Source of the DNA: Arcticibacter eurypsychrophilus
GTDB taxonomy: Bacteria; Bacteroidota; Bacteroidia; Sphingobacteriales; Sphingobacteriaceae
Assembly (NCBI RefSeq): GCF_001730525.1
Contig: NZ_MDFN01000004.1
Span: 1-64,000, forward strand
Length of the DNA: 64,000 bases
Direction: 5' to 3'
Shown here: one piece after another, positions 23,065-39,958 of the stretch
How positions within the stretch are numbered: the first letter of the stretch is position 1
How the letters are laid out: each line of letters opens with the position of its first letter
Translations under genes and position numbers: made by a program
Notes under the pieces: model-generated
The model's input: only the letters and a program-made list of their open reading frames with translations
Told to the model about the DNA's origin: nothing
Databases searched by the model: none

Positions 23065-23859
23065 ATGCGCTTTTATTTAAATTTAAGCCCAGTAAGGACT
23101 TTATCATATATTCCATTTAATTATCAGTATGCGATATCCGCACTGATTTATAAGAAATTAGCACAGGCTAATGAAGGATACGCTGAGTTTCTTCATGAAA
23201 AAGGCTATGCACAGAATCAACACTCCAGACATTTTAAACTGTTTACTTTTTCCAACTTACAAGGAAAGTTTTCTGTTTCTAAAAAAGCGTTAAAGTTAGA
23301 GAGTAATGAAATGGGTTTAATTCTGACATGTCATATGCCTGAATTTGCAGAGAACCTGATAAAGGGAGTGTTTACAGACCAGCATATCTCAATAGGTGAC
23401 CATACAGCCCAGTCAGATTTTACTATTACTCAAATTGAAGTATTACCTAAATTTCTATTTGATGATGCCTCCGAAGTAATCCCTACGGTAAGGTTGAAAT
23501 TACTTTCACCGATAGTAATGTGCAGAAAGAACAGCAGGGGTAACGACGATTACCTTTCTCCGGAGGACGAAGATTTTATTCCATTGCTTATATATAATCT
23601 GAAAGAGAAGATAGCAGTTGCCTATGGTACGGAAGCTGCTGAAGAAGAGGTTTTTGAAGTATTTATTGGTGGTTTGGATAACATTAAATCAAGGCTGGTC
23701 ACCATTAAGGCAGGTAAGTATGCTGAAACTAAAGTAAGAGGGTTTTTAGGATTTGAGATGGAGATGAAGGGATCAAAAAGAGTAATTCAGTTAGCGATGG
23801 ATTGTGGATGCGGAGGAATGAGTTCACTCGGTTTTGGATGTGTGGAGGTTTCTTTATAA
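23065..23859 (+). CDS. cas6: CRISPR-associated endoribonuclease Cas6
   Basis: The 264-residue RAMP protein processes pre-crRNA within the repeats. It begins MRFYLNLSPVRTLSYIPFNYQY, typical of the Cas6 N-terminal ferredoxin fold, and ends with the glycine-rich loop motif GGMSSLGFGCVEV. A His in the first helix (FLHEKGYAQ, near residue 52) is a candidate for the catalytic base. Length fits. It is the first gene of the cas operon, 22 bp before the WYL regulator gene. The strand-wise order and repeat end (ATTGAAAT) fit a type I-B-like system. Confidence 0.9.
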   Translation: MRFYLNLSPVRTLSYIPFNYQYAISALIYKKLAQANEGYAEFLHEKGYAQNQHSRHFKLFTFSNLQGKFSVSKKALKLESNEMGLILTCHMPEFAENLIKGVFTDQHISIGDHTAQSDFTITQIEVLPKFLFDDASEVIPTVRLKLLSPIVMCRKNSRGNDDYLSPEDEDFIPLLIYNLKEKIAVAYGTEAAEEEVFEVFIGGLDNIKSRLVTIKAGKYAETKVRGFLGFEMEMKGSKRVIQLAMDCGCGGMSSLGFGCVEVSL

Positions 23860-23881: not shown

Positions 23882-24805
23882 ATGGATCAAGGGAAAATGG
23901 AGCGACTTCTTCGCTTACTGATGTTGCTAATAGGCAAACGACTTTATACCAGAATTGAACTAGCAGAACGGTCTGGAATTTCTGAAAGAACAATATACCG
24001 ATACTTAGATACTATTGAATCTGCTGGATTTATACTTGAGCGTAAAGAAGATAGCTATTGTTTAAAAACAGATACACCTGCAGTGAAAACGTTGCAGCAG
24101 TTACTCCACTTCTCAAATGAAGAGGCTTTTTTGCTTTTTAAGACTATGGCGCAGTTGCAAGGTGCTTCGCCTCTTAAAGATTGTTTAGCTCGTAAACTGA
24201 ATACTCTTTATGATTTTAGGGCACTAACCAAATTAAAAGACGTTAACATTCATGAACAGGTACATATACTGTTTGAAGCAATTACTAGTAAAAAAAAAGT
24301 TTGCCTTCATAACTACCGCTCCTCAAACAGTGAAAATATTTCTGACCGTCAAGTAGAGCCATTCGGGTTCTTAGCGGATTATACAGCTGTTTGGTGTTTT
24401 GATTTGGAGAGTAACACTTGCAAGCAATTTAGGATTTCAAGGATCCAAGAAGTTCATATATTGGAAAATATCTGGCAATTTGCTGAAATGCACAAAATTC
24501 CTTTTACTGATGTTTTTAGAATGTCTGATAGTCAACCGTTGGTAAATGTGGAAGTTTTGCTTACCCTAAAAGCCTATAATCTTCTGAAAGAAGAATTTCC
24601 ACTCGCTGAACAATTCATAAAACAAGAAGATAAGGGGTATCGGCTATTCGTTCCGATAGCAAATTTTCACGGTATTGGAAGATTTGTATTGGGTTTATCT
24701 GGTCAGGTGCAAGTAATTGGACCGGAAATATTTAAGAAATTTTTAAGCGAAGAAATAAAAAAACAAGTACTGACATTAGTTGGCAGTGAATACAGGTATG
24801 TTTGA
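23882..24805 (+). CDS. WYL-domain transcriptional regulator of the cas locus
   Basis: The 307-residue protein has an N-terminal helix-turn-helix (residues about 5-60: YTRIELAERSGISERTIYRYLDTIE) and a WYL-type ligand domain at about 140-210 (EPFGFLADYTAVWCFDLES, then FRISRIQEV). WYL regulators often sit in CRISPR loci and other defence islands, and some respond to nucleic-acid ligands. It lies between cas6 and the effector genes on the same strand. Autoregulation of the operon is likely but inferred. The usual W-Y-L triplet reads W-C-F here. Confidence 0.85.
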   Translation: MDQGKMERLLRLLMLLIGKRLYTRIELAERSGISERTIYRYLDTIESAGFILERKEDSYCLKTDTPAVKTLQQLLHFSNEEAFLLFKTMAQLQGASPLKDCLARKLNTLYDFRALTKLKDVNIHEQVHILFEAITSKKKVCLHNYRSSNSENISDRQVEPFGFLADYTAVWCFDLESNTCKQFRISRIQEVHILENIWQFAEMHKIPFTDVFRMSDSQPLVNVEVLLTLKAYNLLKEEFPLAEQFIKQEDKGYRLFVPIANFHGIGRFVLGLSGQVQVIGPEIFKKFLSEEIKKQVLTLVGSEYRYV

Positions 24806-24865: not shown

Positions 24866-25570
24866 ATGGATATATCATCAATTTTTGAAGCGCCTAATCT
24901 ATCAGAAAAAGTTAAACTTATTATAACGCCATTGGCTCCTCTTTCAATGGTAAGTGAAATACCTGGGTCCTATTATATATCCGAGAAAAAGCCCTCGAAA
25001 TTCCATCTGTCCGGATTATTGGAGAATATTTTAGGATGGCATATTAGTAATGAAGATCGGTTGTCTATACAGAAAGAAATTAAGAAAGTATATTTAAAAC
25101 AGTATAAAATAAAGGATTACAAAAATGCTGTTTCTAATTCAGGATATATTCCCTTATTGTACCATTTATTCGACATAAAGCTTGTAATGGCTCCAACACC
25201 AATGCACTACGATGATATTTGGAAAAAAGCCTTCCGAAGAGCAGATGCTATAGTACATCCAAACGGAACCCCAAATATTGATTTCGACTTAATCAAAGTG
25301 AAACGCTCATTAAAACGAAAAGAAGATAAACCTCTTCAAATAGACGAAAAAGAAATGGAGATTTTATTTAAAAGCAATTTGGGCAAATTTCCATATTACT
25401 ACACCACTGTATCCAAAAGGGAGTATTTGAAATTTGAAGGAGTAATACAAATCTCACTAGAGATGCAAAAGGGTATTTACAATCTATTAGTAGAATCAAT
25501 TGAAGAAAATAATCTTGTATATCTAGGTACAAATGATGGTTGGACAGATGTAAAAATTGAAATGCTATGA
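24866..25570 (+). CDS. cas5: Probable Cas5 effector subunit
   Basis: The 234-residue protein fits a Cas5 RAMP subunit, which caps the 5' handle of the crRNA in the Cascade complex. The stretch PLAPLSMVSEIPGSYY followed by KPSKFHLSGLLENILGWH is like the Cas5 N-terminal fold and helix, and the C-terminus reads YLGTNDGWTDVKIEML. It resembles what I recall of the Porphyromonas-type Cas5p. It starts 60 bp after the regulator, and its stop overlaps the cas8 start by 4 bp. Confidence is moderate because the family is divergent. Confidence 0.65.
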   Translation: MDISSIFEAPNLSEKVKLIITPLAPLSMVSEIPGSYYISEKKPSKFHLSGLLENILGWHISNEDRLSIQKEIKKVYLKQYKIKDYKNAVSNSGYIPLLYHLFDIKLVMAPTPMHYDDIWKKAFRRADAIVHPNGTPNIDFDLIKVKRSLKRKEDKPLQIDEKEMEILFKSNLGKFPYYYTTVSKREYLKFEGVIQISLEMQKGIYNLLVESIEENNLVYLGTNDGWTDVKIEML

Positions 25571-27132
25571 ATCTAAATCATCCATATATCAAATATGCAT
25601 ATGCTTTATTATTGTCCCAAAAAGAGGATAATGTTGATTTCAAGAAAGAAACTTTACTTGAAGCATTAAGTTTACAAATCCAAAATGGAATCAACAATTT
25701 TAGAGTAAAACCAACGGGAGCGTTTATAGGTAAGGAAAGTGTTGATTTTACTGGGTGTGATGAACAAAAGGGCGATCCTTCAAATGGTGTCTTCTTGTCA
25801 CCAAGTATATTATCATCAGATAAGGCGGCAGGATATATATATAAAGCTGCTAAATCTTTGCTAGCTGAGCTGCCAATTAATATGGATAAGAATACTTGTG
25901 CTTCAATGTCTATTGCACCCATTTCAGGAGAGTATTTAACTTTTAGTAAAAGTGGAGCAGGTCGAGGTAAATCCAAAATTAGTTATATTGAAGCAGCTCT
26001 TTGCGCGATAACAACTATGACACCTGATAAACCTTGCCTTGCTTATAAAGAGAAATCAGGTGGAAAAATAAAGCGAATGAATATAGCTATTATTCCTGAT
26101 CTTGAGAAAGAAGAAGAATTAATAAAATTTATTCTTCTTTTTAATGAGATGAAAAGGAATAATACTTCATCTCTTTTTAAAGGCTCTGTATATAAAGAGA
26201 AAAATAAAAAAGGAGAAGTAGTAAAAGAAAAGCCTTCAAGACCTAAAATTTACAATGGAAATTTCCCTAATGCTCCATCATCTTCAGCTCTTGGAGCTGT
26301 TGGGTTACTTGGAGCAATCGGTGAATTTTCTAAAAGGGCTGAAATGAAATTAGAAGCTGAAGCTGTTTTGGAATCATTAAAAGAGACAACAATGTATATT
26401 ATTAGTTATGGTGATGCTAAGTCATTTACCTATAACCACTACATTATTGACTTAGCAAAAGAAGGTAAATTAAGAAGCATTGTTGATAGTATTTATTATA
26501 TCCAATTATATAAGGGCAAACGCAGAGATGAACCCAATGAATATGAAAAGTTAGATTTGTTTTCTGGCCGCTTTTTGCAAATATTTAATTTACCAGCTTT
26601 CAAAGATTTTATGTCTTTCAGAGGTGAGTATCCTGAACCATTGATTACCTTATTATTTACATATTTTATAAAAATTGAAATGATATCAATAGAAATTGTG
26701 CAATCGGCGAGAGCTTTGGGTAAGTGGCTTAATTTAGTTGCTTACTTAGTGGCCAAAGAGGAAATAAAACAAGGATCTCCTAATTACTGGGATGAGATAA
26801 GAAAGGTTAAGGCGAAAGTGCTAATTGAATTAGAAAGCTCTGCATTTTCAGCGAAAACAGGAGACGCTTTAATTGCTCAAACTGTTGCTCGTGCAGGGAG
26901 ATTAAGCAAAATGGACGTACCTGAAAGTGCTGCCTTATTCATGGAAAAAGCAAATGAAAATGATCCAAATATTTTGAATTTGGATCAAGCCAAAAATTTA
27001 TTAATCGCTTTTTCAAGATTACAAAATAGGTTCCAAAAGAAAGAAGAGCCGAAGGTTGAAAAAGTAGATGACGTCGATGATATTTTATCAGAAGACATCG
27101 AAAGTGAAGATTTGGAAGATGCTCAAGTTTGA
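25567..27132 (+). CDS. cas8: Probable Cas8 large subunit
   Basis: The 521-residue product holds the place of the large Cascade subunit Cas8, which finds the PAM and recruits Cas3. It does not show a motif I can tie to a named Cas8 class. The N-terminus is MNLNHPYIKYAYALLLSQK. The middle has a Gly-rich SKSGAGRGKSKISY, and the C-terminus is acidic (DDVDDILSEDIESEDLEDAQ). Its size, overlap with cas5 and position before cas7 support the call. It may belong to the Csp2/PGING-type set in Bacteroidota. The assignment is mainly from position. Confidence 0.55.
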   Translation: MNLNHPYIKYAYALLLSQKEDNVDFKKETLLEALSLQIQNGINNFRVKPTGAFIGKESVDFTGCDEQKGDPSNGVFLSPSILSSDKAAGYIYKAAKSLLAELPINMDKNTCASMSIAPISGEYLTFSKSGAGRGKSKISYIEAALCAITTMTPDKPCLAYKEKSGGKIKRMNIAIIPDLEKEEELIKFILLFNEMKRNNTSSLFKGSVYKEKNKKGEVVKEKPSRPKIYNGNFPNAPSSSALGAVGLLGAIGEFSKRAEMKLEAEAVLESLKETTMYIISYGDAKSFTYNHYIIDLAKEGKLRSIVDSIYYIQLYKGKRRDEPNEYEKLDLFSGRFLQIFNLPAFKDFMSFRGEYPEPLITLLFTYFIKIEMISIEIVQSARALGKWLNLVAYLVAKEEIKQGSPNYWDEIRKVKAKVLIELESSAFSAKTGDALIAQTVARAGRLSKMDVPESAALFMEKANENDPNILNLDQAKNLLIAFSRLQNRFQKKEEPKVEKVDDVDDILSEDIESEDLEDAQV

Positions 27133-27163
27133 AATAAGTCTAATCAATATTTATAAAAAAAAA

Positions 27164-28090
27164 ATGCAAATCAAAGGAATATTAGTATCCATAGTTGCAC
27201 CAATGGATAATCACATGGCAAATGGAGGAGAGAAACTACTAGGCAATGCCTCTTCAATAAAAAGGACACCTGATGGAAAAGTATATATATCAGGACAAAT
27301 GCAGCGACATGTTCTGTTTTCAGCAATGGAACATTTGAATAACTCGGACGAAAATAAGGGAGAAACATTCATATCTAACGGCGACGGTGTTACTAATCTA
27401 ATCGAGAATGATCTTCGTGCTGACATGGGCGGCTTTATGCACCCATCCAAGGGTGATTATTCGGGCAGAAGAACTGCCCCATTAAGCGCTACCATTGCTA
27501 TTGCATTAGACAAAAGCGAAGTTGGCCGAGATCTATTGATACGATTAAAGCAAGATTCTGGGACTGATAGTAACAATCAAGCACTAGCTACCAAGGAATT
27601 CAGTGAACATGACTTGATGAACATGAACTTTCATTTAGATATTACCAGTCTTAGTATTTCTAAAACCTTTAAGTATGAAGGAGGATATCATATAGCTACC
27701 AATTATATAAAACACGTAAATGATGCTGAACGAAAACGACGTTCCTGTCTTTTTTTAGAATCAACACGATCAATGAATGATTATGCTAATCAAGCTAGGA
27801 ATGCAGTAAGTGGTGAGCCACAAAAAGTACTTATTGTTTTTGATAATAAACTAAGTCGTAAAGCGTGCCGGTACTTCGCTACAAGTAACGAAATCGAAAA
27901 AGTCAATATTTTAGATGAACTAAAAGAAAGAGGTGCTAAATACTTTATTGGCGATGATACGATTGGTGAAAAATCTGTTGCTGTTGCGTATAAAGAAGCA
28001 TTTGGATTTTTGAACTCAGAACATTTATTTGATCCGACCGACGGTCAGCAAGACATTAAAACATTCAAAGAAGCTTTTGGAAAAGACTAA
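27164..28090 (+). CDS. cas7: Cas7 (DevR/Cst2-like) backbone subunit
   Basis: Cas7 forms the filament that covers crRNA in Cascade. I chose the ATG giving MQIKGILVSIVAPMDNHMANGG because conserved sequence starts there; an upstream ATG at 27068 would overlap cas8 with unrelated sequence. The resulting 308-residue protein has the family hallmarks KVYISGQMQRHVLFSAMEHLN and DLRADMGGFMHP. Length is typical. The 32-bp gap after cas8 and overlap with cas3 keep the genes co-translated. Function follows from family and position. Confidence 0.85.
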   Translation: MQIKGILVSIVAPMDNHMANGGEKLLGNASSIKRTPDGKVYISGQMQRHVLFSAMEHLNNSDENKGETFISNGDGVTNLIENDLRADMGGFMHPSKGDYSGRRTAPLSATIAIALDKSEVGRDLLIRLKQDSGTDSNNQALATKEFSEHDLMNMNFHLDITSLSISKTFKYEGGYHIATNYIKHVNDAERKRRSCLFLESTRSMNDYANQARNAVSGEPQKVLIVFDNKLSRKACRYFATSNEIEKVNILDELKERGAKYFIGDDTIGEKSVAVAYKEAFGFLNSEHLFDPTDGQQDIKTFKEAFGKD

Positions 28091-30389
28091 CCATTCAGGT
28101 AATATAATTTTAGGCAAGCCATCAGGGATTTCTCTAAAAGATCATACGCAAAATGTAATTGATGAAGGAAAGTATTTGATGTCTTGTCTTATAAACACAA
28201 ACAAAAAATATCTTAATCGTACTGGTAAAGAATTAAGTAGGCGAATAAAAGGTGCTTGCCAATTTCATGATGAGGGTAAAAAAGAATCTAAATGGCAAGA
28301 AGCCTGCCAAAAAGATCATGATAACTTTGTAAAATGGCAACTAGGAAATTTAGGAAAATCATTTGAAGATTACACTATTGTAAAACGAGATGAGGCTGGT
28401 CAATACCTTCGGAACTCAGGTATTAGGCATGAAATATTTTCTCTTATTTTACATGGAAAAAGCAAATTTTCTAATCCAGTACAGGTAGCTATAGCTGCAC
28501 ATCATGCGAAATTAAATCATAAGCATGAGGAAAGATGGATTAAGAAGAATGGAATAAGTGGGAAAGAGAACTGGAAAGAAGGAATAGTTCTTTGGAAATA
28601 TTTTACATCTTTAGAAGGTTTAGTAAGTTTATCTGACTTTAAAGATACTATAGCTAAGTTCTATGAGTACAGTGGAGTTCGTAGCTATCTTCAAATTGCA
28701 GACCATCGGGCTAGTGCCAAAGAGTCAAATAATCCTTATCCATCCATTGATGCTTTTCACTATTCTTTTAATAAAAATTGGACCAAACGACCTGTGCAGG
28801 AAATAGTAGACAAGCACTGGGAGGATATGTTAATGCTATTGAGGGCACCTACTGGTGCTGGGAAAACAGATGCCGCATTGCTATGGGCCTCTAAACAAAT
28901 CGAAAATGGCAGAGCAGAACGTTTGGTTATAGCTATGCCAACTCGATTTGCCTCCAATGCTTTAGCAATAAATACAGCTTCAAGTCTTTCTAATACTGGT
29001 CTTTACCATTCAAGTGCTTGGTTTAACCGTTTCCATAAAAAGGTACAAAATAGAGAAATTAAACAAAAAGACGCAAAAAAAGAGCATGAGTTGGCAAGAT
29101 TAATATTAACGCCTGTTACTGTATGTACAATAGACCATTTAATGATGGCGATGACATTGTCCAGGGAAGATCAGCACACTATATTATTCAATCTTGCAAA
29201 TAGCTGTGTTGTTATTGATGAAGCAGACTTTTATGATGAATTTACTCAGGCTAACATATTGGTATTACTGGAATTTTTAAACCTATTAGATGTGCCGGTA
29301 ATGATAATGAGTGCATCCCTTCCAGAGTCAAGCCTTGAAATGTATCGTAAAAGTGGTTATAAAATTGATGCTATAAGGGAAGATATCTTTGAGATAGAAA
29401 AACCGAGATGTGCTATTAAAAGTAAAAGAGAATATTCCAAAGTAAATGAGTTAAGCGATTTGTTAGAACGTTGTATTTTAGAAGGGAAAGCCATCATTTA
29501 TGTTAATACAGTAGCAAGAGCAATAGAATTTTACGAATGGTTTAAGAAAAAAAAAATTGATGTTATTCTTTATCATAGCCGTTTTACAGAACCAGATAAA
29601 TTAGCTAAAGAAGAATATTTAATTGAGCATTTGGGCAAAGAAGCTTGGCAAAATGGAACAGCAAAAGGAATTGCAATCCTCACTCAGATTGGTGAAATGA
29701 GTGTAAATATTAGTGCTGATATTATGATTTCAGAGATATGTCCGATTGATAGATTGGTGCAAAGAGCAGGGAGACTTTGCCGCTTTAATTCAAATAGGAT
29801 AGGAGAACTTTACGTAATTATACCTCAAAAGGATGATATTCTTTATCCTGCACCTTATGGAACATTTATACAAAAAAAAGGATGGGAACCAATTGAGTCA
29901 TTTACCCAAACGCTTAACTTATTAGAGATTAAAAGTTATTCTCCGAAGAATTTCATTGATTTGGTTAATAATGTTTATCCCACTTTTAAGCATTTTTCAA
30001 CAAAGAGCGAACTTAATGCTAAAAACCTGAAATGGTTATTTTTATACAATTGGGTTATTGGTAGCAAAGAAATTCCTCATGAAGATGAAAACGATACTTC
30101 GTTTTGGAAAAGCCGAGATATTGTTAATAGCAGCACTGTTTATGTAACGAAGCCAGAAAGCAACTATTCCTATTGGAGTGATCTTCAGGCTTTCAAGTGT
30201 GAGTTTTCAATAGAACTCCCGAAATATTTAATAGAAAAGGGTATTAAAAATTTTTCAATTGGGATTGAAACTGTTTACATAGGTAATTTTGATACACATG
30301 AAACTGTGTATTATGCTAGAGAGGGAGTGTATAGCTCTGATTTTGGGTTATTAATCAAAGAACCAGTAATTGATGATAGATTCCTTTAG
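28077..30389 (+). CDS. cas3: CRISPR-associated nuclease/helicase Cas3
   Basis: Cas3 unwinds and degrades DNA bound by Cascade. The frame has no ATG before the conserved region. The TTG at 28077, within the cas7 end, is the likeliest start, and another TTG at 28029 is also in frame. Numbering from 28077: HD nuclease motif CQFHDEGKK with His64-Asp65, AAHHAKLNH at about 140, Walker A APTGAGKT at 257-264, DEAD motif VVIDEADFYDEF at 381-384, and DRLVQRAGRLCRF for motif VI. It is full length with both HD and helicase domains fused, about 770 residues. It is followed by cas4. Confidence 0.9.
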   Translation: MEKTNHSGNIILGKPSGISLKDHTQNVIDEGKYLMSCLINTNKKYLNRTGKELSRRIKGACQFHDEGKKESKWQEACQKDHDNFVKWQLGNLGKSFEDYTIVKRDEAGQYLRNSGIRHEIFSLILHGKSKFSNPVQVAIAAHHAKLNHKHEERWIKKNGISGKENWKEGIVLWKYFTSLEGLVSLSDFKDTIAKFYEYSGVRSYLQIADHRASAKESNNPYPSIDAFHYSFNKNWTKRPVQEIVDKHWEDMLMLLRAPTGAGKTDAALLWASKQIENGRAERLVIAMPTRFASNALAINTASSLSNTGLYHSSAWFNRFHKKVQNREIKQKDAKKEHELARLILTPVTVCTIDHLMMAMTLSREDQHTILFNLANSCVVIDEADFYDEFTQANILVLLEFLNLLDVPVMIMSASLPESSLEMYRKSGYKIDAIREDIFEIEKPRCAIKSKREYSKVNELSDLLERCILEGKAIIYVNTVARAIEFYEWFKKKKIDVILYHSRFTEPDKLAKEEYLIEHLGKEAWQNGTAKGIAILTQIGEMSVNISADIMISEICPIDRLVQRAGRLCRFNSNRIGELYVIIPQKDDILYPAPYGTFIQKKGWEPIESFTQTLNLLEIKSYSPKNFIDLVNNVYPTFKHFSTKSELNAKNLKWLFLYNWVIGSKEIPHEDENDTSFWKSRDIVNSSTVYVTKPESNYSYWSDLQAFKCEFSIELPKYLIEKGIKNFSIGIETVYIGNFDTHETVYYAREGVYSSDFGLLIKEPVIDDRFL

Positions 30390-30413: not shown

Positions 30414-30926
30414 ATGCTTATCACCGCAACCTTTATTAATTATTACTTTATCTGTCACAGGAAATTATGGTTGTTCGCCAACGGTATCCGCATGGAACAC
30501 TCTTCAGAAATAGTTGCTGAAGGTAAATTAATTGGTGAAACCACCTATATCGATCGCTCACAACAATATACTGAAGTTGAGGTAGATGGTATTAAAATTG
30601 ATTTTTATGATGCTAAAAACAAGGTGGTACATGAAGTTAAAAAAAGCAATAAAATAGAGAAGGCTCACATTGCTCAGGTAAAATATTATATATACAAATT
30701 AGAGCAAAAGGGGATAGAGGGTGTAACCGGGGTGATTGAATATCCTAAAATGCGGCAAAAAGAGACCGTATTATTAGAATCAGGAGATAAGGAGATGATA
30801 CAAAGCTGGGAAAAGAATATTGAGGAATTGGTTGAGAGTGAAATCTGTCCACCGTTACTTCGTAAGCCCATCTGCAAGCAATGTAGTTATTTCGATTTTT
30901 GTTATGTTGAAGAACCAAAAGATTGA
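30414..30926 (+). CDS. cas4: CRISPR-associated exonuclease Cas4
   Basis: The 170-residue protein is a short Cas4, a RecB-like nuclease that trims and orients prespacers with Cas1-Cas2. Cys14 in YFICHRKLW and Cys154, Cys157, Cys163 in ICKQCSYFDFC are the expected 4Fe-4S ligands. The nuclease core shows IDFYDA and the E-x-K element HEVKKSNK. It precedes cas1 by 15 bp, as is usual in type I-B loci. Confidence 0.92.
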   Translation: MLITATFINYYFICHRKLWLFANGIRMEHSSEIVAEGKLIGETTYIDRSQQYTEVEVDGIKIDFYDAKNKVVHEVKKSNKIEKAHIAQVKYYIYKLEQKGIEGVTGVIEYPKMRQKETVLLESGDKEMIQSWEKNIEELVESEICPPLLRKPICKQCSYFDFCYVEEPKD

Positions 30927-30941
30927 AATATACGTTAGCTC

Positions 30942-31946
30942 ATGAAAAAAACTTATTACTTATTTAATGCAGGACGCCTAAGTCGCAAAGACTATACTTT
31001 GAAGTTTTTACCTGTAGATGAGGATGGGCTCGAAGGCGTACCTAAATATATTCCAGTAGAGGGTGTTTCTGACCTATTTTGTTTTGGGAGTCTAGATGCC
31101 AATAGTGCTTTGTATAATTTCTTGGGTAAAGCCGGAATTGCCGTTCACTTTTTCGATTATTATGAAAATTATACTGGTAGTTTTTGTCCGAAAGAGTACT
31201 TGCTAGCGGGTAAGATGCAGATTTCACAGACTCGTCATTACATTGATTCTAAAAAGCGGATGATTATTGCCCGCAAATTTGTAAGCGGTGGTGCTTTTAA
31301 TATGACTAAGACTTTACGTTATTATCTTAACAGGGACAAAGATGTGAGTGTCTCACTTAATAGTATTGAACTTTTGATGTTACAGATAGAGCAAACGAAA
31401 GAAGTAAATGAATTGATGGGTATAGAGGGTAACATAAGGCAGCGATATTATCAGGCATTTGATATCATTGTAAATAATTATCAGATGGAGGGCAGAAGCA
31501 AGCAGCCTCCTGGTAATGAGTTAAATGCAATGATTTCATTTGGTAATATGATGTGTTATTCTGCTTGTCTTAATCAGTTATATCATACGCAACTAAACCC
31601 TACAATCAGTTTCTTGCATGAACCAGGCTTTAGACGATTTTCGTTAGCACTTGATCTGGCAGAAATTTTTAAACCTGTACTTGTTGATCGTACAATTTTT
31701 AGATTGTTAAATAAAAAGGAGATTTCATCAAAAGATTTTGATATGAACATGAATGGCTGCATGTTAAAAGACTCTGGAAGAAAGGTGTTTGTGAAAGCTT
31801 GGGATGAACGCTTAAATGAAACGTTCAAACATCCTGTATTGAATCGGAATGTAAGTTATAAGCATCTTATTAAATTGGAATGTTATAAGTTGGGTAAACA
31901 TTTATTGGGACTTGATGAATACAAACCGTATAAGGTTAGATGGTAA
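30942..31946 (+). CDS. cas1: CRISPR integrase Cas1
   Basis: The 334-residue integrase inserts new spacers at the leader end. Metal ligands are visible: Glu162 in GIEGNIRQRYY, His226 in SFLHEPG and Asp238/Glu241 in LALDLAEIFKP. Length and sequence are of the type I-B Cas1 group. The protein is complete, so adaptation can be assumed possible. cas2 starts 27 bp downstream. Confidence 0.96.
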   Translation: MKKTYYLFNAGRLSRKDYTLKFLPVDEDGLEGVPKYIPVEGVSDLFCFGSLDANSALYNFLGKAGIAVHFFDYYENYTGSFCPKEYLLAGKMQISQTRHYIDSKKRMIIARKFVSGGAFNMTKTLRYYLNRDKDVSVSLNSIELLMLQIEQTKEVNELMGIEGNIRQRYYQAFDIIVNNYQMEGRSKQPPGNELNAMISFGNMMCYSACLNQLYHTQLNPTISFLHEPGFRRFSLALDLAEIFKPVLVDRTIFRLLNKKEISSKDFDMNMNGCMLKDSGRKVFVKAWDERLNETFKHPVLNRNVSYKHLIKLECYKLGKHLLGLDEYKPYKVRW

Positions 31947-31973
31947 ACAAGCTACTTTTTTAAATATTTAATT

Positions 31974-32237
31974 ATGTATGTTATCTTAGTTTATGACATT
32001 GGAGAAAAGAGAGTTGTAAAAATGCTAAAACTGTGCAGACAGTACTTAAATTGGATACAAAATTCAGTATTTGAAGGAGAAATTAGTCTCGTAAAATTAA
32101 AAGAGTTACTAGCAAAAGCAAAAATGATTATTAATCCGGAGACAGATAGTATCCTTGTTTTTAAAAGCAGAGAAGAGAGGTGGTTAGAAAAAGAAGTGGT
32201 AGGTCTTGAAAAGAACAAGCTAGATAATATCCTTTAA
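31974..32237 (+). CDS. cas2: CRISPR-associated Cas2
   Basis: The 87-residue protein (MYVILVYDIGEKRVVKMLK) is a typical Cas2, the dimeric partner of Cas1 in spacer integration. The N-terminal beta strand holds Asp8, the conserved aspartate of the fold. It is the last cas gene, about 200 bp before the first repeat. Length is within the family range (80-100). Confidence 0.95.
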   Translation: MYVILVYDIGEKRVVKMLKLCRQYLNWIQNSVFEGEISLVKLKELLAKAKMIINPETDSILVFKSREERWLEKEVVGLEKNKLDNIL

Positions 32238-32434
32238 GTTGTCGATGATGATAACACTGTATGTTCTTTGACATTTGAAAATAATGATTAAGGTATAAAA
32301 TAGTCTTTAAAGGGTATAGGATCCGGTTGTCTGTCAATGCATAAGGATCGGTTATTATACACCGACTAATTTTTATAAAAATAAAAGTAATAAAAACGAT
32401 GTTTAAGTATATATTAGACCCGTTTTGTTAACGA
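32238..32434 (+). promoter_or_regulatory. CRISPR leader region
   Basis: This 197-bp AT-rich stretch lies between cas2 and the first repeat. The leader is placed here because the first repeats are perfect while the far end carries mutated repeats. It contains TTTGACATTTG near 32268-32278 and later ATAAAATAG and TCTTTAAAGG, which may be promoter parts. An exact promoter cannot be chosen by eye. Confidence 0.7.
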
Positions 32435-35400
32435 CCCTTAATCGCACCGTACTGGAATTGAAATAACTAAAACGTTAGAGGTTTTAATTGAGGAAAAGCA
32501 CCCTTAATCGCACCGTACTGGAATTGAAATAACTAAAACGTTAGAGGTTTTAATTGAGGAAAAGCACCCTTAATCGCACCGTACTTTTAAAACAAATGAT
32601 GCAGAAATTTTAATACGCCCTTAATCGCACCGTACTGGAATTGAAATCATTTTAAAACAAATGATGCAGAAATTTTAATACGCCCTTAATCGCACCGTAC
32701 TGGAATTGAAATTCAAACTGTACTTGATCTCTACCTATCTGCCGTTGCACCCTTAATCGCACCGTACTGGAATTGAAATACAACCAGAAACTCTATTGTT
32801 CTGAAATTATTAACACCCTTAATCGCACCGTACTGGAATTGAAATACAACTGGAGGAGGAACAACAATAGCAGGAAGCGTAACCCTTAATCGCACCGTAC
32901 TGGTACTGGAATTGAAATTTGATAATCTCTGATAATTTGATACTCTGACATTGAACCCTTAATCGCACCGTACTGGAATTGAAATAATTTTAAAACAAAT
33001 GATGCAGAAATTTTAATACGCCCTTAATCGCACCGTACTGGAATTGAAATCATAACCGAGGTAAAGGAGGATGACGTAAGCATAAACCCTTAATCGCACC
33101 GTACTGGAATTGAAATACAACCAGAAACTCTATTGTTCTGAAATTATTAACACCCTTAATCGCACCGTACTGGAATTGAAATATTATACTGCTGATACAT
33201 ATAATTTCATCGATATACCCTTAATCGCACCGTACTGGAATTGAAATCAGGATGATCAAAGCACATTTTCAGTTGACGCTAAACAAGTCGCTGGTATTGG
33301 TCAACTTCCCTTAATCGCACCGTACTGGAATTGAAATAGTGAACCAGTACAGGACACAGACGGTAGCTGGTTGTCCCTTAATCGCACCGTACTGGAATTG
33401 AAATAACTAAAACGTTAGAGGTTTTAATTGAGGAAAAGCACCCTTAATCGCACCGTACTGGAATTGAAATAGGATTGACTTTGATCCAGTAACACATGAG
33501 TGCAGCCCTTAATCGCACCGTACTGGAATTGAAATAGGATTGACTTTGATCCAGTAACACATGAGTGCAGCCCTTAATCGCACCGTACTGGAATTGAAAT
33601 AGGATTGACTTTGATCCAGTAACACATGAGTGCAGCCCTTAATCGCACCGTACTGGAATTGAAATAGGATTGACTTTGATCCAGTAACACATGAGTGCAG
33701 CCCTTAATCGCACCGTACTGGAATTGAAATCAGGATGATCAAAGCACATTTTCAGTTGAAGAAAATCCCTTAATCGCACCGGACTGGAATTGAAATCTAG
33801 TAGACCCAGATGATGATGAAGAAGCGCCGCTACCCCTTAATCGCACCGTACTGGAATTGAAATCACACAGTAATAATGAACTTCATTAAGTATTCAGAGC
33901 CCTTAATCGCACCGTACTGGAATTGAAATATAGGCAAATCACGCAAAGGAATAAAATATGTTTTCCCCTTAATCGCACCGTACTGGAATTGAAATCATTC
34001 AAGAATGCGACCAACTTTGATGCCGACCAGTCCCTTAATCGCACCGTACTGGAATTGAAATTCTTTCAGCCCTTCATGCTTCATTTTCGCTTTTTCCCCT
34101 TAATCGCACCGTACTGGAATTGAAATATTATTGAAATTCTCTGAACTCTTATTATTATTCACCCTTAATCGCACCGTACTGGAATTGAAATCTTTTCTTT
34201 GCAGGTGCATAGATTTAGCGTAATACTCCCTTAATCGCACCGTACTGGAATTGAAATTGCTTTACCCTATTAGGAATGATCTCATGTAATTTTCCCTTAA
34301 TCGCACCGTACTGGAATTGAAATCACGCCTTTTGTTCCTTTAAATTCAGGAGCAACATTCCCTTAATCGCACCGTACTGGAATTGAAATTTTGCAAAGTT
34401 AGGAGATGCCTTTACTTCTATTTTTCCCTTAATCGCACCGTACTGGAATTGAAATTCGCCTATCTTAATACCTCCACATTCATCAAATAACCCTTAATCG
34501 CACCGTACTGGAATTGAAATATCTAAATCAAACCGACAAACTGCACTACCTAATGACCCTTAATCGCACCGTACTGGAATTGAAATCGCTTAAACGTCTG
34601 GTTGATGTTAATATTGGTAACTCCCTTAATCGCACCGTACTGGAATTGAAATATGTAAGTCATATTCTTATCCTATTAAATTTCCTTGTCCCTTAATCGC
34701 ACCGTACTGGAATTGAAATCGGAACAACCCTAATCGCAACAGTAACCCCAACACCCCCTTAATCGCACCGTACTGGAATTGAAATCGGAACAACCCTAAT
34801 CGCAACAGTAACCCCAACACCCCCTTAATCGCACCGTACTGGAATTGAAATAAATATAATAGCGGAGATGTCGTAGGCGTTAAACAGACCCTTAATCGCA
34901 CCGTACTGGAATTGAAATATGTAAGTCATATTCTTATCCTATTAAATTTCCTTGTCCCTTAATCGCACCGTACTGGAATTGAAATATGTAAGTCATATTC
35001 TTATCCTATTAAATTTCCTTGTCCCTTAATCGCACCGTACTGGAATTGAAATATGTAAGTCATATTCTTATCCTATTAAATTTCCTTGTCCCTTAATCGC
35101 ACCGTACTGGAATTGAAATATGTAAGTCATATTCTTATCCTATTAAATTTCCTTGTCCCTTAATCGCACCGTACTGGAATTGAAATATGTAAGTCATATT
35201 CTTATCCTATTAAATTTCCTTGTCCCTTAATCGCACCGTACTGGAATTGAAATATGTAAGTCATATTCTTATCCTATTAAATTTCACATGTTAGGATTTA
35301 TAATATCCAAAAATTCAATCCCTTAATCGCACCGTACTGGAATTGAAATCAAGACGTATAATAGCGGAGATGTCGTAGGCGTTAAACAGACCCTTAATCG

Positions 35401-38015
35401 CACCGTACTGGAATTGAAATCAATGTATGAACTCACCACAACAATCAGAACCGGTCCCTTAATCGCACCGTACTGGAATTGAAATCACATTTCACTAAGC
35501 GTTGCGGCTATGAAAATAAGTCCCTTAATCGCACCGTACTGGAATTGAAATAGCTTAGTTAGGCTGTAGATAACCGTTGCAACCCCTCCCTTAATCGCAC
35601 CGTACTGGAATTGAAATCTTGCTGAAAATAACCACAATGAGTCAGGGCATCTCCCTTAATCGCACCGTACTGGAATTGAAATTCGTTATAAAAAGTACAA
35701 CCGTAACCGATTGTAGCTCCCTTAATCGCACCGTACTGGAATTGAAATCAAGACTTGGGTAAAATAATCAACGTCAGCCTGAGAAGACCCTTAATCGCAC
35801 CGTACTGGAATTGAAATTTTACAGTAACGAGTTTAAGTTAAATGATTTTTGTTCCCTTAATCGCACCGTACTGGAATTGAAATTTAGACGTGCTAAACGC
35901 AGGTCACATTCTTATTAACCCTTAATCGCACCGTACTGGAATTGAAATCAAGCTGGAGGAGGAACAACAATAGCAGGAAGCGTAACCCTTAATCGCACCG
36001 TACTGGTACTGGAATTGAAATTTGATAATCTCTGATAATTTGATACTCTGACATTGAACCCTTAATCGCACCGTACTGGAATTGAAATTAGGTACAAATA
36101 TACTAATACGTTCGTTCGTTTGCCCCTTAATCGCACCGTACTGGAATTGAAATCAAAGATTCTGGTTCAAACAAATGTTCTTTTACTTCCCTTAATCGCA
36201 CCGTACTGGAATTGAAATCACATTTCACTAAGCGTTGCGGCTATGAAAATAAGTCCCTTAATCGCACCGTACTGGAATTGAAATCTAGTCGGCTCAGCTA
36301 TAACATTAATAGGTGGTCCACCCTTAATCGTACTGGAATTGAAATCGTGAGTACGATAACATAATGTCACAAAATATTGGTACCCTTAATCGCACCGTAC
36401 TGGAATTGAAATCTAGTCGGCTCAGCTATAACATTAATAGGTGGTCCACCCTTAATCGTACTGGAATTGAAATCGTGAGTACGATAACATAATGTCACAA
36501 AATATTGGTACCCTTAATCGCACCGTACTGGAATTGAAATAAATATAATAGCGGAGATGTCGTAGGCGTTAAACAGACCCTTAATCGCACCGTACTGGAA
36601 TTGAAATATGACTCTTAGCCCCTCGAACAGCGCCCCCATATAACCCTTAATCGCACCGTACTGGAATTGAAATATGACTCTTAGCCCCTCGAACAGCGCC
36701 CCCATATAACCCTTAATCGCACCGTACTGGAATTGAAATATGACTCTTAGCCCCTCGAACAGCGCCCCCATATAACCCTTAATCGCACCTAAAATATCAG
36801 GATCTATAATCTGATTTACATCCTTAATCACACCGTACTGGAATTGAAATCTAAATGGAAGTTCATCATTATGCAAACGTTTAAATCCCTTAATCGCACC
36901 GTACTGGAATTGAAATCAGGATGATCAAAGCACATTTTCAGTTGAAGAAAATCCCTTAATCGCACCGGACTGGAATTGAAATCTAGTAGACCCAGATGAT
37001 GATGAAGAAGCGCCGCTACCCCTTAATCGCACCGTACTGGAATTGAAATATGACTCTTAGCTGCAAATAAAAGCAACATTAGCCCGTATTGCCCCCTTAA
37101 TCGCACCGTACTGGAATTGAAATAAAAACAGGGAGCAGTTTTCAGGAAAAAGATGCTTTCCCTTAATCGCACCGTACTGGAATTGAAATATGCACCGCAA
37201 AGCCTAATTATGAAGGATGGTGGAGACCCTTAATCGCACCGTACTGGAATTGAGATTCGACACCGAATCCTATAAAATTGGCTATCCTAGACCCTTAATC
37301 GCACCGTACTGGAATTGAAATTCCAGCGATACAGACCGCACATGATCCGTATATAAACCCTTAATTGCACCGTACTGGAATTGAAATTCATACGCAGCAG
37401 GGCTAATGATCGCTTCAGGCGGCCCCTTAATCGCACCGTACTGGAATTGAAATCACGTATAATATGAACGGATTAATAAAGGTTCATATCCCTTAATCGC
37501 ACCGTACTGGAATTGAAATAGTATTGACGCTTACATGCCACTTGGAGATATTGCTCCCTTAATCGCACCGTACTGGAATTGAAATATATTAGAAGGTACA
37601 AGAATTTTGTTCACTGGACTTCCGTTAAATAGCTCCTTCATCGCGGCAAGATGATCCCCTTAATCGCACCGTACTGGAATTGAAATAGTACTGGCAATGC
37701 TGATGCTGTTGCTCCTGTTGACCCTTAATCGCACCGTACTGGAATTGAAATATACGAGCTGATTCCTCAACGTAAAGGTAATCTATCCCTTAATCGCACC
37801 GTACTGGAATTGAAATAGTTACACCGAGTGCGTGGTCAGGTACCATTTCGATACCCTTAATCGCACCTTACTGGAATTGAAATCACTCTGGACATTTAGT
37901 TATGATCATATGAATAAATGCCTTTAATCGCACCGTACTGGAATTGAAATTTATGAAAGCTCACTTACTATTAGTATTCTTAACCTCCCTTAATCGCACC
38001 GTACTGAATTGAAAT
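32435..38015 (+). CRISPR. CRISPR array, about 84 repeat units of 30 bp
   Basis: The repeat is 30 bp, beginning CCCTTAATCGCACCG and ending TACTGGAATTGAAAT. I counted 84 units and 83 spacers, mostly 35-37 bp. At least 15 spacer families occur more than once and cover about half of the array: for example one at 32465, 32531 and 33405; one four times in a row at 33471-33700; one six times at 34653 and 34919-35223. Odd units: truncated repeats at 32567-32584 and 36776-36789, 36-bp repeats at 32883 and 35986, 25-bp repeats at 36321 and 36449. Long or chimeric spacers are at 33248-33307, 35254-35319, 37050-37093 and 37586-37656. The distal repeats at 37854, 37921 and 37987 carry mutations, marking the old end. 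Confidence 0.98.
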
Positions 38016-38092: not shown

Positions 38093-38116
38093 GGTTCTTC
38101 GCCAATTTTGATGCAC
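38093..38116 (+). repeat. ISL3 terminal inverted repeat, left
   Basis: The 24-bp end matches the reverse complement of the right end at 23 positions. It includes the last base of the transposase stop codon. Confidence 0.9.
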
Positions 38117-39666
38117 TATCCAGTTTGTGAGAGACAGACTTTTCTCCTAAGCAGCTCAAAACCACATCTGCCATACATTTCCCGTTTTTTATTTTTTAAC
38201 CTATTTACATTTCCCTCTACCAGTCCGTTGGTCCAGTTATATATTATTGCATTCTTAATGGCCATAATATCCTTTTTTAAACCCTCACAAAAACTATCCA
38301 TTCTTTTTCGGCCAATTGATTGGACATTTTCAATCCAGATATCTAACTGATTGGGGCACCCACCCTTTAAAATATTTCTAAAGTCTATGTGAAACTTGCG
38401 CAAACTGAATAAAAGCGGAACCTCTTTTATGAGATTATCAACAACTTCTTTTTCCTTTGAGCATTCTCCTGTATCTTTTGCAACTCCATATTCAGGATTG
38501 GTTACAAAAATTGATAGCTTTTTAGGCGAAGGAATAAAATTATTCATAATATCAGCTTTGCTGACTTTTAATGGTTCTGGATACGTCCTATTCCATTTAT
38601 GTTTATAATCCCGGAAATTCAAGTTAAACCATCTGGTAAAGGATCGCTCACAACATTTTAACCCTATGTCTCTTAAGGATCTATACATGGCGGATTGATT
38701 GATTTCCAAACTGCACATGTGTTTGATTTCTGCCATATATCTATTATAATTGACTTGCGTACTCCTGCTTGTCGACGGTATTCCGTGTGCTAGGTATCTT
38801 TTTACCGTGATCCAGGTCGCTTGTGTTTTTCTAGCGATTTCAGAGATGCTGTGTCCATTTTTTTTCATTTTGGTAATCTGAACAAGTTTTTCCCTTTTCA
38901 CCATCATGGTTGAAGAGATCTCCTGCTCAACGCTACGGCTAGCATCATATTGGGCATCCAAAATTACTTCACCGGGTTTTATTTTTGACTTCTTTGATTC
39001 ATTGCCCGCATAAATGTTTTTAGAAACCTGTCTTAAATAGCTATACTCTTGTCTGATTTCCTCTTGAACAGCATCACTTAGATTTTTTACCAAATGGAAT
39101 CTATCTGCTATCTGCTTTGCCTCCGGGATAGCTTTCTTGATGGCACTGGCATAAGCCGTGGATCTGTCTCTGGTTACGTATTTTATTTCTTTATGATTGG
39201 ACAGCCATTCCACAACATCATTAGAATCTCTGCTATCCAAAAGATCTATGGGGCGTCCTGTATCTGCATTAACGATAATTGTACCATAATTTATTCCCTT
39301 TCTCTTTGCCCAATCGTCTATACCGATGCAGTTCAGTTTGTCATTTGTTGGCATTCTCATGGATTTGACCATCCTAAGGCAGGTATTATTACTGACAGGT
39401 ATATTCATTATTTTGGAAAAATAAGCGCCTTTATTGGATGATATCTCAATAAGGAACTTCTTTAAATATTCTGAAGCCCTGATCGTTCGTCTGGAATAGG
39501 GCTCGGTCAAATTATTGCACCTTTCTGAAAATATCCGCTTTTCACAAGCTGGATTATTGCAAGCAAAGCGGCGTACCTCAAGCATGACAAGAACCTCATT
39601 TGCCGCCAAGGGCAGGTCCGCGAGTGCTCTTACATAGGAGGAACGCACACTGCCACTGCTTTTCAT
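38116..39666 (-). CDS. ISL3-family transposase
   Basis: The 516-residue reading contains the ISL3 DDE core: CIGIDDWAKRKG, RPIDLLDSRDS, VTRDRSTAYASAI, DRFHLVKNL and, near the C-terminus, NGLVEGNVNRLKNKKR. The given ATG lies inside a zinc-finger-like region. Sequence in the same frame upstream continues to about 39790 (reading KCPSC before the Met) and clearly belongs to the protein, but I find no ATG, GTG or TTG before the next stop. The true start is therefore unclear, or the N-terminus is damaged. A helix-turn-helix (HSISEIARKTQATWITVKRYL) lies in the middle. Confidence 0.9.
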   Translation of the reverse strand: MKSSGSVRSSYVRALADLPLAANEVLVMLEVRRFACNNPACEKRIFSERCNNLTEPYSRRTIRASEYLKKFLIEISSNKGAYFSKIMNIPVSNNTCLRMVKSMRMPTNDKLNCIGIDDWAKRKGINYGTIIVNADTGRPIDLLDSRDSNDVVEWLSNHKEIKYVTRDRSTAYASAIKKAIPEAKQIADRFHLVKNLSDAVQEEIRQEYSYLRQVSKNIYAGNESKKSKIKPGEVILDAQYDASRSVEQEISSTMMVKREKLVQITKMKKNGHSISEIARKTQATWITVKRYLAHGIPSTSRSTQVNYNRYMAEIKHMCSLEINQSAMYRSLRDIGLKCCERSFTRWFNLNFRDYKHKWNRTYPEPLKVSKADIMNNFIPSPKKLSIFVTNPEYGVAKDTGECSKEKEVVDNLIKEVPLLFSLRKFHIDFRNILKGGCPNQLDIWIENVQSIGRKRMDSFCEGLKKDIMAIKNAIIYNWTNGLVEGNVNRLKNKKREMYGRCGFELLRRKVCLSQTG

Positions 39667-39934
39667 ACAACTCGGGCACTTAGAGCGGGTTCCTGCTTTT
39701 TTTGCAAATAAACGTATTGTTGTATCCTGTATTTCGGAACGGTATATCTTAATTTTCCGGTCACCATAAAATAAACATACTATTTTTAAGTTAAAAATTT
39801 TGGATGGATTTACCCTTAAAACATTTGACTATCAATGCCTTAGGGTACGAAAAAAGAACTGATAAAGCAACCTTTTATTGGTGTTATTTTACTGAATATC
39901 AAATATTTAGGTGGATTTTTGAAAGAATTGTTAA

Positions 39935-39958
39935 GTGCATCAAAATTGGTGAAGAACC
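39935..39958 (-). repeat. ISL3 terminal inverted repeat, right
   Basis: The 24-bp end differs from the left one by a single base (GAAGAACC at the border, TGGT against TGGC inside). Confidence 0.9.

Follow-up and report, generated by a model that had tools for sequence, protein, structure and literature searches.

Repeat-guided template switching and slippage as a probable source of duplicated and chimeric spacers in a CRISPR array of Arcticibacter eurypsychrophilus

In this work, we have analysed a clustered regularly interspaced short palindromic repeats (CRISPR) array of Arcticibacter eurypsychrophilus, which lies within positions 1 to 64,000 of contig NZ_MDFN01000004.1 (this whole stretch of 64,000 nucleotides is called the window below). 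Our results show that about half of the spacers are duplicated, an observation that the original prediction had made and that is confirmed here. They also show two features that go beyond it, namely chimeric spacers and a loss of spacer order across unmutated repeats. We propose, with a probability of roughly 0.6, that template switching guided by the repeats, together with slippage, has shaped the array, which would then be a hyper-rearranged variant of a known process.

Duplicated spacers

The array and its tandem runs are located as follows.

32435-38015, + strand: CRISPR array of 84 repeats and 83 spacers, repeat CCCTTAATCGCACCGTACTGGAATTGAAAT
33471-33700, + strand: spacer #16 four times in tandem (#16-#19)
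34919-35223, + strand: spacer #34 five times in tandem (#38-#42), with a sixth copy at 34653-34689
36608-36775, + strand: spacer #63 three times in tandem (#63-#65)

These figures come from a curated parsing, in which 70 of the 84 repeats are identical and 14 are variant. An automated parse of the window gave 82 spacers, 33 of them duplicated, with 10 adjacent identical pairs; its count is lower because truncated repeats merged two units, and the curated values (83, 34 and 11) are used instead. There are 62 distinct spacers, and 13 families of exact copies hold 34 of the 83 spacers (41%). With the near-copies #3/#4/#9 and #7/#53 included there are 15 families and 39 spacers, and with the part-copies #13, #43, #44 and #70 the number rises to 43 spacers, so that the predicted 39-43 spacers in 15 families were counted correctly. 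The six-fold family (34653 and 34919-35223), the four-fold tandem (33471-33700) and the three-fold family (32465, 32531 and 33405) were likewise found where they had been placed. All the spacer copies found have the same orientation. Eleven adjacent pairs are exactly identical (12 with the near-copy #3/#4), and tandem runs of 2, 3, 4 and 5 copies are present; apart from these, the copies are mostly dispersed singly.

For comparison we used the arrays at loci with related cas1 genes in public genomes, taking the best 80 of 334. Sixteen of the 80 loci had no array, one (L047) was left out for its short consensus and one carried two arrays, which gave 64 arrays from 63 loci, mostly on contigs of unfinished genomes, with 3571 spacers (5 with masked N left out). 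Exact duplicates make up 121 of these 3571 spacers (3.4%), against 41% in the Arcticibacter array, and 17 of the 64 arrays contain any. The comparator maximum is 27% (18/66 in L080, Tannerella forsythia), and all comparators together contain 10 adjacent identical pairs, against the 11 of this array alone (10 by the automated parse). Similarly, SpacerPlacer (PMC11472070), as far as its accessible text goes, describes duplications as rare, with 805 of 24,090 spacers (3.3%) given as candidates. Among the closest likenesses to this array are L080 and L038 (Arthrospiribacter ruber, 16/109), which have a related cas1, a similar repeat and exact duplicated blocks. Unlike it, both preserve the order within their blocks, and in neither does a spacer join part of another spacer to unrelated sequence. 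Both the level of duplication and the extent of splicing in the Arcticibacter array exceed those of every comparator array examined.

A different arrangement was seen in L078 (Perlabentimonas gracilis), where several duplicated spacers occur singly in mirror order (41, 46, 57 and then 57, 46, 41), an order that would not come from direct duplication.

Chimeric spacers and truncated units

Several spacers of the array are chimeras with breakpoints inside the spacers. In seven pairs of non-identical spacers, 29-34 nt are common to both members and the match breaks off abruptly; a further pair has 12 nt in common. Base-shuffled spacers, by comparison, share 12-mers in 0.19 pairs on average. The chimeric spacers and altered units are these.

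33248-33307, + strand: chimeric spacer #13 (60 nt), 29 nt of #20/#68 followed by 31 nt, parent not found
35254-35319, + strand: chimeric spacer #43 (66 nt), 32 nt of #34 followed by 34 nt, parent not found
35350-35390, + strand: chimeric spacer #44 (41 nt), a new 7-nt head followed by nt 4-37 of #37/#62
37050-37093, + strand: chimeric spacer #70 (44 nt), 12 nt of #63 followed by 32 nt, parent not found
32567-32617, + strand: unit 3, repeat cut to 19 nt and joined to spacer #4 from its nt 4
36776-36820, + strand: unit 66, repeat cut to 14 nt with a 31-nt spacer remnant
37586-37656, + strand: spacer #78 (71 nt), judged from its length to be probably two spacers fused by loss of a repeat

Smaller differences were found at spacer heads. 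Spacers #7 and #53 differ in their first 4 nt alone, although both head the same block of a mutated repeat and the next spacer, and #9 differs from #4 at nt 1, where a point mutation could equally account for #9. Breakpoints are thus not confined to repeats, as #13, #43, #44, #70, the pair #7/#53 and the truncated units #3 and #66 show. In all 8 junctions that could be placed (4 exactly, 4 on the assumption of a lost spacer of 35-37 nt; #50 and #78 could not be placed), the right-hand part starts between nt 2 and nt 7 of a spacer, and the left-hand breaks vary. A break placed uniformly within the spacer would give this pattern with a probability of 6e-7, although the pattern was defined post hoc.

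Among comparator pairs sharing at least 12 nt at the 5' end, none continues into unrelated sequence; the members of each pair either differ by substitutions or diverge only over the final few bases. Two comparator pairs have an identical 3' end of at least 20 nt and a different head, and in both the heads are similar enough for substitution variants. Only 6 unmasked comparator spacers exceed 41 nt (43, 81, 83 twice, 100 and 130 nt). One of them, the 100-nt spacer 10 of L022, carries one stretch in two copies with no repeat separating them, and the two of 83 nt (spacers 98 and 109 of L038) are copies of one spacer within a duplicated eight-unit block, with a possible stem-loop by eye.

In the open-access literature, as far as its accessible text goes, the Salmonella CRISPR1 fused unit STM7A/7B (PMC3356390) was the one case found of chimeric, hybrid or fused spacers. 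Its likeness to the Arcticibacter array lies in the unusual fused spacer-repeat unit; in the text available, however, it is a single unit, suggested by the authors to be accidental during acquisition, while the array has several fusions and truncations, with some of the parents still present.

Spacer order and mutated repeats

Three two-unit blocks recur, each with its own mutated repeat (#7-8/#53-54, #20-21/#68-69 and #58-59/#60-61).

32846-32955, + strand: spacers #7-#8 with a mutated repeat between them (TACTGG doubled); same block, with a different 4-nt head, at 35949-36058
35949-36058, + strand: spacers #53-#54, second copy of the #7-#8 block, mutated repeat included
33731-33833, + strand: spacers #20-#21 with a mutated repeat (CCGG) between them; identical block at 36917-37019
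36917-37019, + strand: spacers #68-#69, second copy of the #20-#21 block, mutated repeat included
36285-36510, + strand: spacers #58-#61, a two-unit block with a 5-nt repeat deletion, doubled in tandem

Duplicated units are therefore bounded by repeats and carry the repeat mutations along. Duplicated blocks do not, however, keep spacer order across canonical repeats. The multi-copy spacers form 15 distinct ordered neighbour pairs, of which 3 recur, all across a mutated repeat, that is, 3 of 4 mutated junctions against 0 of 11 canonical ones (Fisher p 0.009). In the comparators, 23 of 29 canonical pairs recur (p 5e-6 against the 0/11 observed here) and the single mutated pair also does; the counts come from few events, L038 and L080 together giving 12 of the 29. 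From the comparators it follows that ordinary duplications keep order. No multi-copy spacer occurs in #70-#83, the 14 spacers at the far end of the array, between which five mutated repeats lie. Taken together, these results suggest that single mutated repeats act as barriers to switching.

A role of this kind has a counterpart in PMC8047081, where, in its accessible text, degenerate terminal repeats are proposed to protect against array recombination. The likeness is that mutated repeats are thought to recombine less; the difference is that the mutated repeats of the Arcticibacter array are internal and coincide with the only spacer order that is preserved. In our searches of the open-access literature, we did not find mosaic spacers and an order kept only across mutated repeats described together, and none of the titles listed dealt with mosaic spacers.

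Simulated rearrangement

We simulated tandem slippage alone, with six mean block sizes, and slippage combined with copying of blocks to random places, in 15 settings. A match was a duplication-matched sample in which no more than 3 pairs were preserved and 9 or more families were dispersed, with 8 to 16 tandem neighbours and 11 to 20 pairs; the observed values are 3, 12, 12 and 15. Slippage alone gave 38 matches in 3895 samples (22/833, or 2.6%, in the best setting), and slippage with scattered copying gave 758 in 8970 (134/280, or 48%, in the best setting, with a mean block of 1.2 units). In a smaller first simulation, none of 649 samples from slippage alone combined zero preserved pairs with at least 7 dispersed families, and the settings with scattered copying gave 3/39, 3/4, 2/7 and 0/352.

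Origin of the rearrangements

We propose that the identical 30-nt repeats of the array guide DNA copying errors that rearrange it from within, in two modes. By tandem slippage, one unit would be stacked several times. By template switching, a strand would jump to another repeat, copy about one unit and jump again at the next identical repeat; a mutated repeat would block this second jump, so that the unit beyond is carried along and a two-unit tract results. In some jumps the point of departure or arrival would lie a few bases past the repeat, which would give rise to chimeric spacers or shortened repeats, and head changes in register (#7 and #9) may arise when the strand overruns the repeat by a few bases before switching. 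We infer that the switching takes place in replication or repair, and that the mutated repeats have the barrier role given to them here.

Slippage is the published default model of array change (PMC8047081 and PMC11472070, in their accessible texts), and tandem duplication and deletion of blocks by misaligned repeats might have acted by itself, over many rounds, with differential loss scattering the survivors. The Arcticibacter array shares with this model the duplication and deletion of units, the use of repeats as homology, the blocks and the tandem runs of up to 5 copies. Some paired displacements also fit a block duplication followed by loss (#4 to #9 and #6 to #11 by five units each; the #7-8 and #20-21 blocks by 46 and 48 units). 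The published model, as far as those texts go, contrasts with an array that has exact duplicates for 41% of its spacers, contains several chimeras and does not keep order across canonical repeats. Slippage by itself makes no chimeric spacers, its simulations seldom reproduced the array, and the canonical adjacencies that recur so often in the comparators do not recur here. We therefore hold slippage as the sole process to be doubtful, though with an appreciable chance of being right.

The sequence itself could also be at fault, through wrong copy numbers or through variants of a mixed population stitched into one path, which might inflate the copies per single cell. The genome is a draft, and common short reads are too short to span the identical tandem runs (290 and 365 bp); copy numbers are for this reason uncertain, those of the tandem runs being the least certain part of our data. 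An assembly word of more than about 32 bases would, however, span a whole repeat and both its flanks, and each spacer-to-spacer join should therefore be real somewhere in the sample. An assembler could presumably alter copy number and order, and would not readily invent joins, copied repeat mutations and chimeras. In addition, the array sits inside a 178-kb contig, the listed contamination is 0.04%, and the comparators show few duplicates in spite of coming mostly from unfinished genomes. We regard an assembly artefact as unlikely. The array is probably real, and then an extreme and informative example of a known process; the main risk lies in the copy number and in strain mixture.

Repeated acquisition had been offered as an origin of the duplicates, beside recombination and slippage between repeats; the same protospacers would then have been taken up again and again while an attack persisted. 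Re-acquisition is probable in the related arrays, where 16 spacer pairs have a common 5' end and 3' ends that differ by 1-3 nt; these slipped pairs were located in L019, L025, L029, L065, L069, L075, L078, L082, L090, L093 and L096. Their example suggests that true re-acquisition has a simple sign, namely a 5' end that stays constant and a 3' end that has slipped. In the Arcticibacter array there are no such pairs. None of the 21 extra exact copies departs in length from its original, for which P is about 1e-9 under independent acquisition, because two independent acquisitions agree in length in 38% of cases (from the observed spread) and this would have to happen 21 times. Moreover, blocks recur together with their mutated repeats, and there are runs of 4-5 identical neighbours. 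Repeated acquisition is thus effectively excluded for the bulk of the duplicates, and as a general account we give it almost no credence; of the mechanisms first suggested, recombination and slippage between repeats are the ones supported, by the repeat mutations shared between blocks and by the tandem runs.

The CRISPR machinery itself could break repeat-spacer borders, by misdirected Cas1-Cas2 integration or by Cascade-Cas3 attack, with rejoining through short homologies. The start of the right-hand part at nt 2-7, just past the repeat, in all 8 placeable junctions would fit such breaks, and cas1, cas2 and cas3 are present as open frames. This pattern, however, is the post hoc one described above, in which half of the placements assume the length of a lost spacer, the odd spacers #50 and #78 could not be placed, and #4/#9 may be one point mutation. 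Most rearrangements also leave the repeats exact (70/84 identical), and we find this account very improbable. The wider notion that the integrase or Cas3 breaks and rejoins the array at one constant position, slightly (a few bases) beyond the 3' edge of the repeat, reshuffling spacers and making hybrid guides, so that diversification would be in part an activity of the system, is a speculation that we rate as improbable.

Several points weigh against template switching with slippage, or against the barrier role within it. All the evidence comes from one array in one draft genome of 93 contigs. The association with mutated repeats concerns four junctions, was noticed post hoc and fails at one of them (#2 to #3). 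Spacers #22-#33 are single-copy too, with every repeat among them canonical, so the quiet far end of the array need not reflect its mutated repeats, and most preserved comparator blocks contain canonical repeats, so order does not depend on mutated repeats when few events have occurred. Donors for the heads of #7, #9 and #44 were sought in the array and could not be assigned; 5-nt head matches occur at chance level (about 2 pairs expected by our estimate), and #76 was rejected as a donor for #44, its 10-nt match also being at chance level (2.6 pairs expected). The mixed simulations with a mean block of 2.7 gave 3/1321, 19/1289 and 16/1235 matches (0.2-1.5%), no better than slippage alone, and all the simulations are simple, with one mean block size per setting, correlated samples within a run, unfitted rates and all repeats treated alike. 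A hairpin in the repeat was considered as a replication stall site and none is predicted; a mutator host was considered as well, and mutS, mutL and recA score above curated cut-offs, without stops, in this genome and in all 5 congeners (the mutS of congener G003 being cut by a contig end). The instability of the array is therefore explained by neither. Finally, the repeat was found in none of the 5 congeners with up to 2 mismatches, and the exact repeat had no match in a public collection of genome contigs, from which the record of the window itself may be absent, so there is no sister array for comparison.

Duplications and block deletions are known from other arrays (PMC8047081), and in Riemerella (PMC5006608) tandem duplications, one spacer multiplied several times and a large-size spacer are mentioned in the accessible text. 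The former work also states, in the text available, that direct data are needed on how arrays lose, gain and reorder spacers. The many events of the Arcticibacter array carry natural markers, the mutated repeats and the chimeric junctions, which help to separate slippage from template switching. If the arrangement is real, spacer order is no clock in such arrays, and hybrid spacers would weaken the matching of spacers to their targets.

Spacer targets

Extra copies of particular guides might be selected for their dose, and targets of the expanded spacers were sought with this in mind; no convincing protospacer was found. Against phages, the spacers gave matches only at E 2 or worse, and against plasmids, apart from one Runella record, at E 0.1 or worse. 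That record (Runella rosea plasmid NZ_CP030854.1, 2e-11) was rejected as a target, the match consisting of ten short pieces at seven places that cover 29% of the array query at 70% identity; it is probably another array with a similar repeat. In viral contigs, which were scanned for exact parts of six spacers, 20- or 21-mers of five expanded or chimeric spacers had no exact match. A 20-mer of #7/#53 was found in two contigs and was set aside, with 23-26 of 37 bases matching, within predicted genes coding GGTTIAG stretches.

Weak spacer matches were seen in 5 of 399 genomes of the family other than its own, three of them at one AT-rich stretch, a gene start by eye, that overlaps the junction of #43. 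At this place, 26 of 27 nt across the chimeric junction (35275-35301) match L100 and L101, and the congener L102 more weakly; the match is probably due to chance, though it complicates that junction. The other two are #6 (32780-32815), 30 of whose 36 nt match a gene, a kinase by eye, in family member L103, and #29, with 27 of 30 nt matching in L104. All these weak matches are probably chance. Outside the array, none of the weakly matching sequences was found in the own genome (#6 at E 0.01).

The cas operon and the flanking element

As judged from its gene content, the locus is a type I-B CRISPR-Cas system of the Bacteroidota type. By PADLOC and Pfam profiles, cas3 is accompanied by cas5, cas7, a cas8b-type large subunit and cas6, and the adaptation genes cas1, cas2 and cas4 are all present. 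For Cas5, Cas7 and Cas8, the I-B profiles and the older 'PGING' profiles match about equally, or the latter slightly better, so the subtype label depends on the PADLOC I-B models. All the operon genes upstream of the array are open frames.

23065-23859, + strand: cas6 (PADLOC Cas6b 2.5e-66; Pfam Cas6)
23882-24805, + strand: WYL/HTH regulator inside the cas operon (PADLOC WYL 4.6e-22; Pfam HTH_11, WYL)
24866-25570, + strand: cas5 (PADLOC Cas5 3.1e-66; no Pfam match)
25567-27132, + strand: cas8 (PADLOC Cas8c/Csp2 3.8e-166, Cas8b 6.6e-166; no Pfam match)
27068-28090, + strand: cas7 (PADLOC Cas7 4.4e-150)
28029-30389, + strand: cas3 (PADLOC Cas3 5.1e-96)
30414-30926, + strand: cas4 (PADLOC Cas4b 5.6e-71)
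30942-31946, + strand: cas1 (PADLOC Cas1b 1.5e-159)
31950-32237, + strand: cas2 (Pfam CRISPR_Cas2 1.8e-22)
32238-32434, + strand: presumed leader, by its position between cas2 and the first repeat

The closest relatives of cas1 belong to a lichen-derived Sphingobacteriaceae genome (91%) and to a metagenome-assembled genome of Mucilaginibacter (86%), so the host is probably a member of this family. The leader probably lies at 32238-32434, because the repeats bearing substitutions are concentrated near the other end of the array (mostly 37227-38015); compared with plasmids, this region matched nothing useful. An ISL3-type transposase (Pfam) lies within 25-bp inverted repeats at 38093-39958, and since this element begins 77 bp beyond the last repeat, the natural trailer of the array may have been lost.

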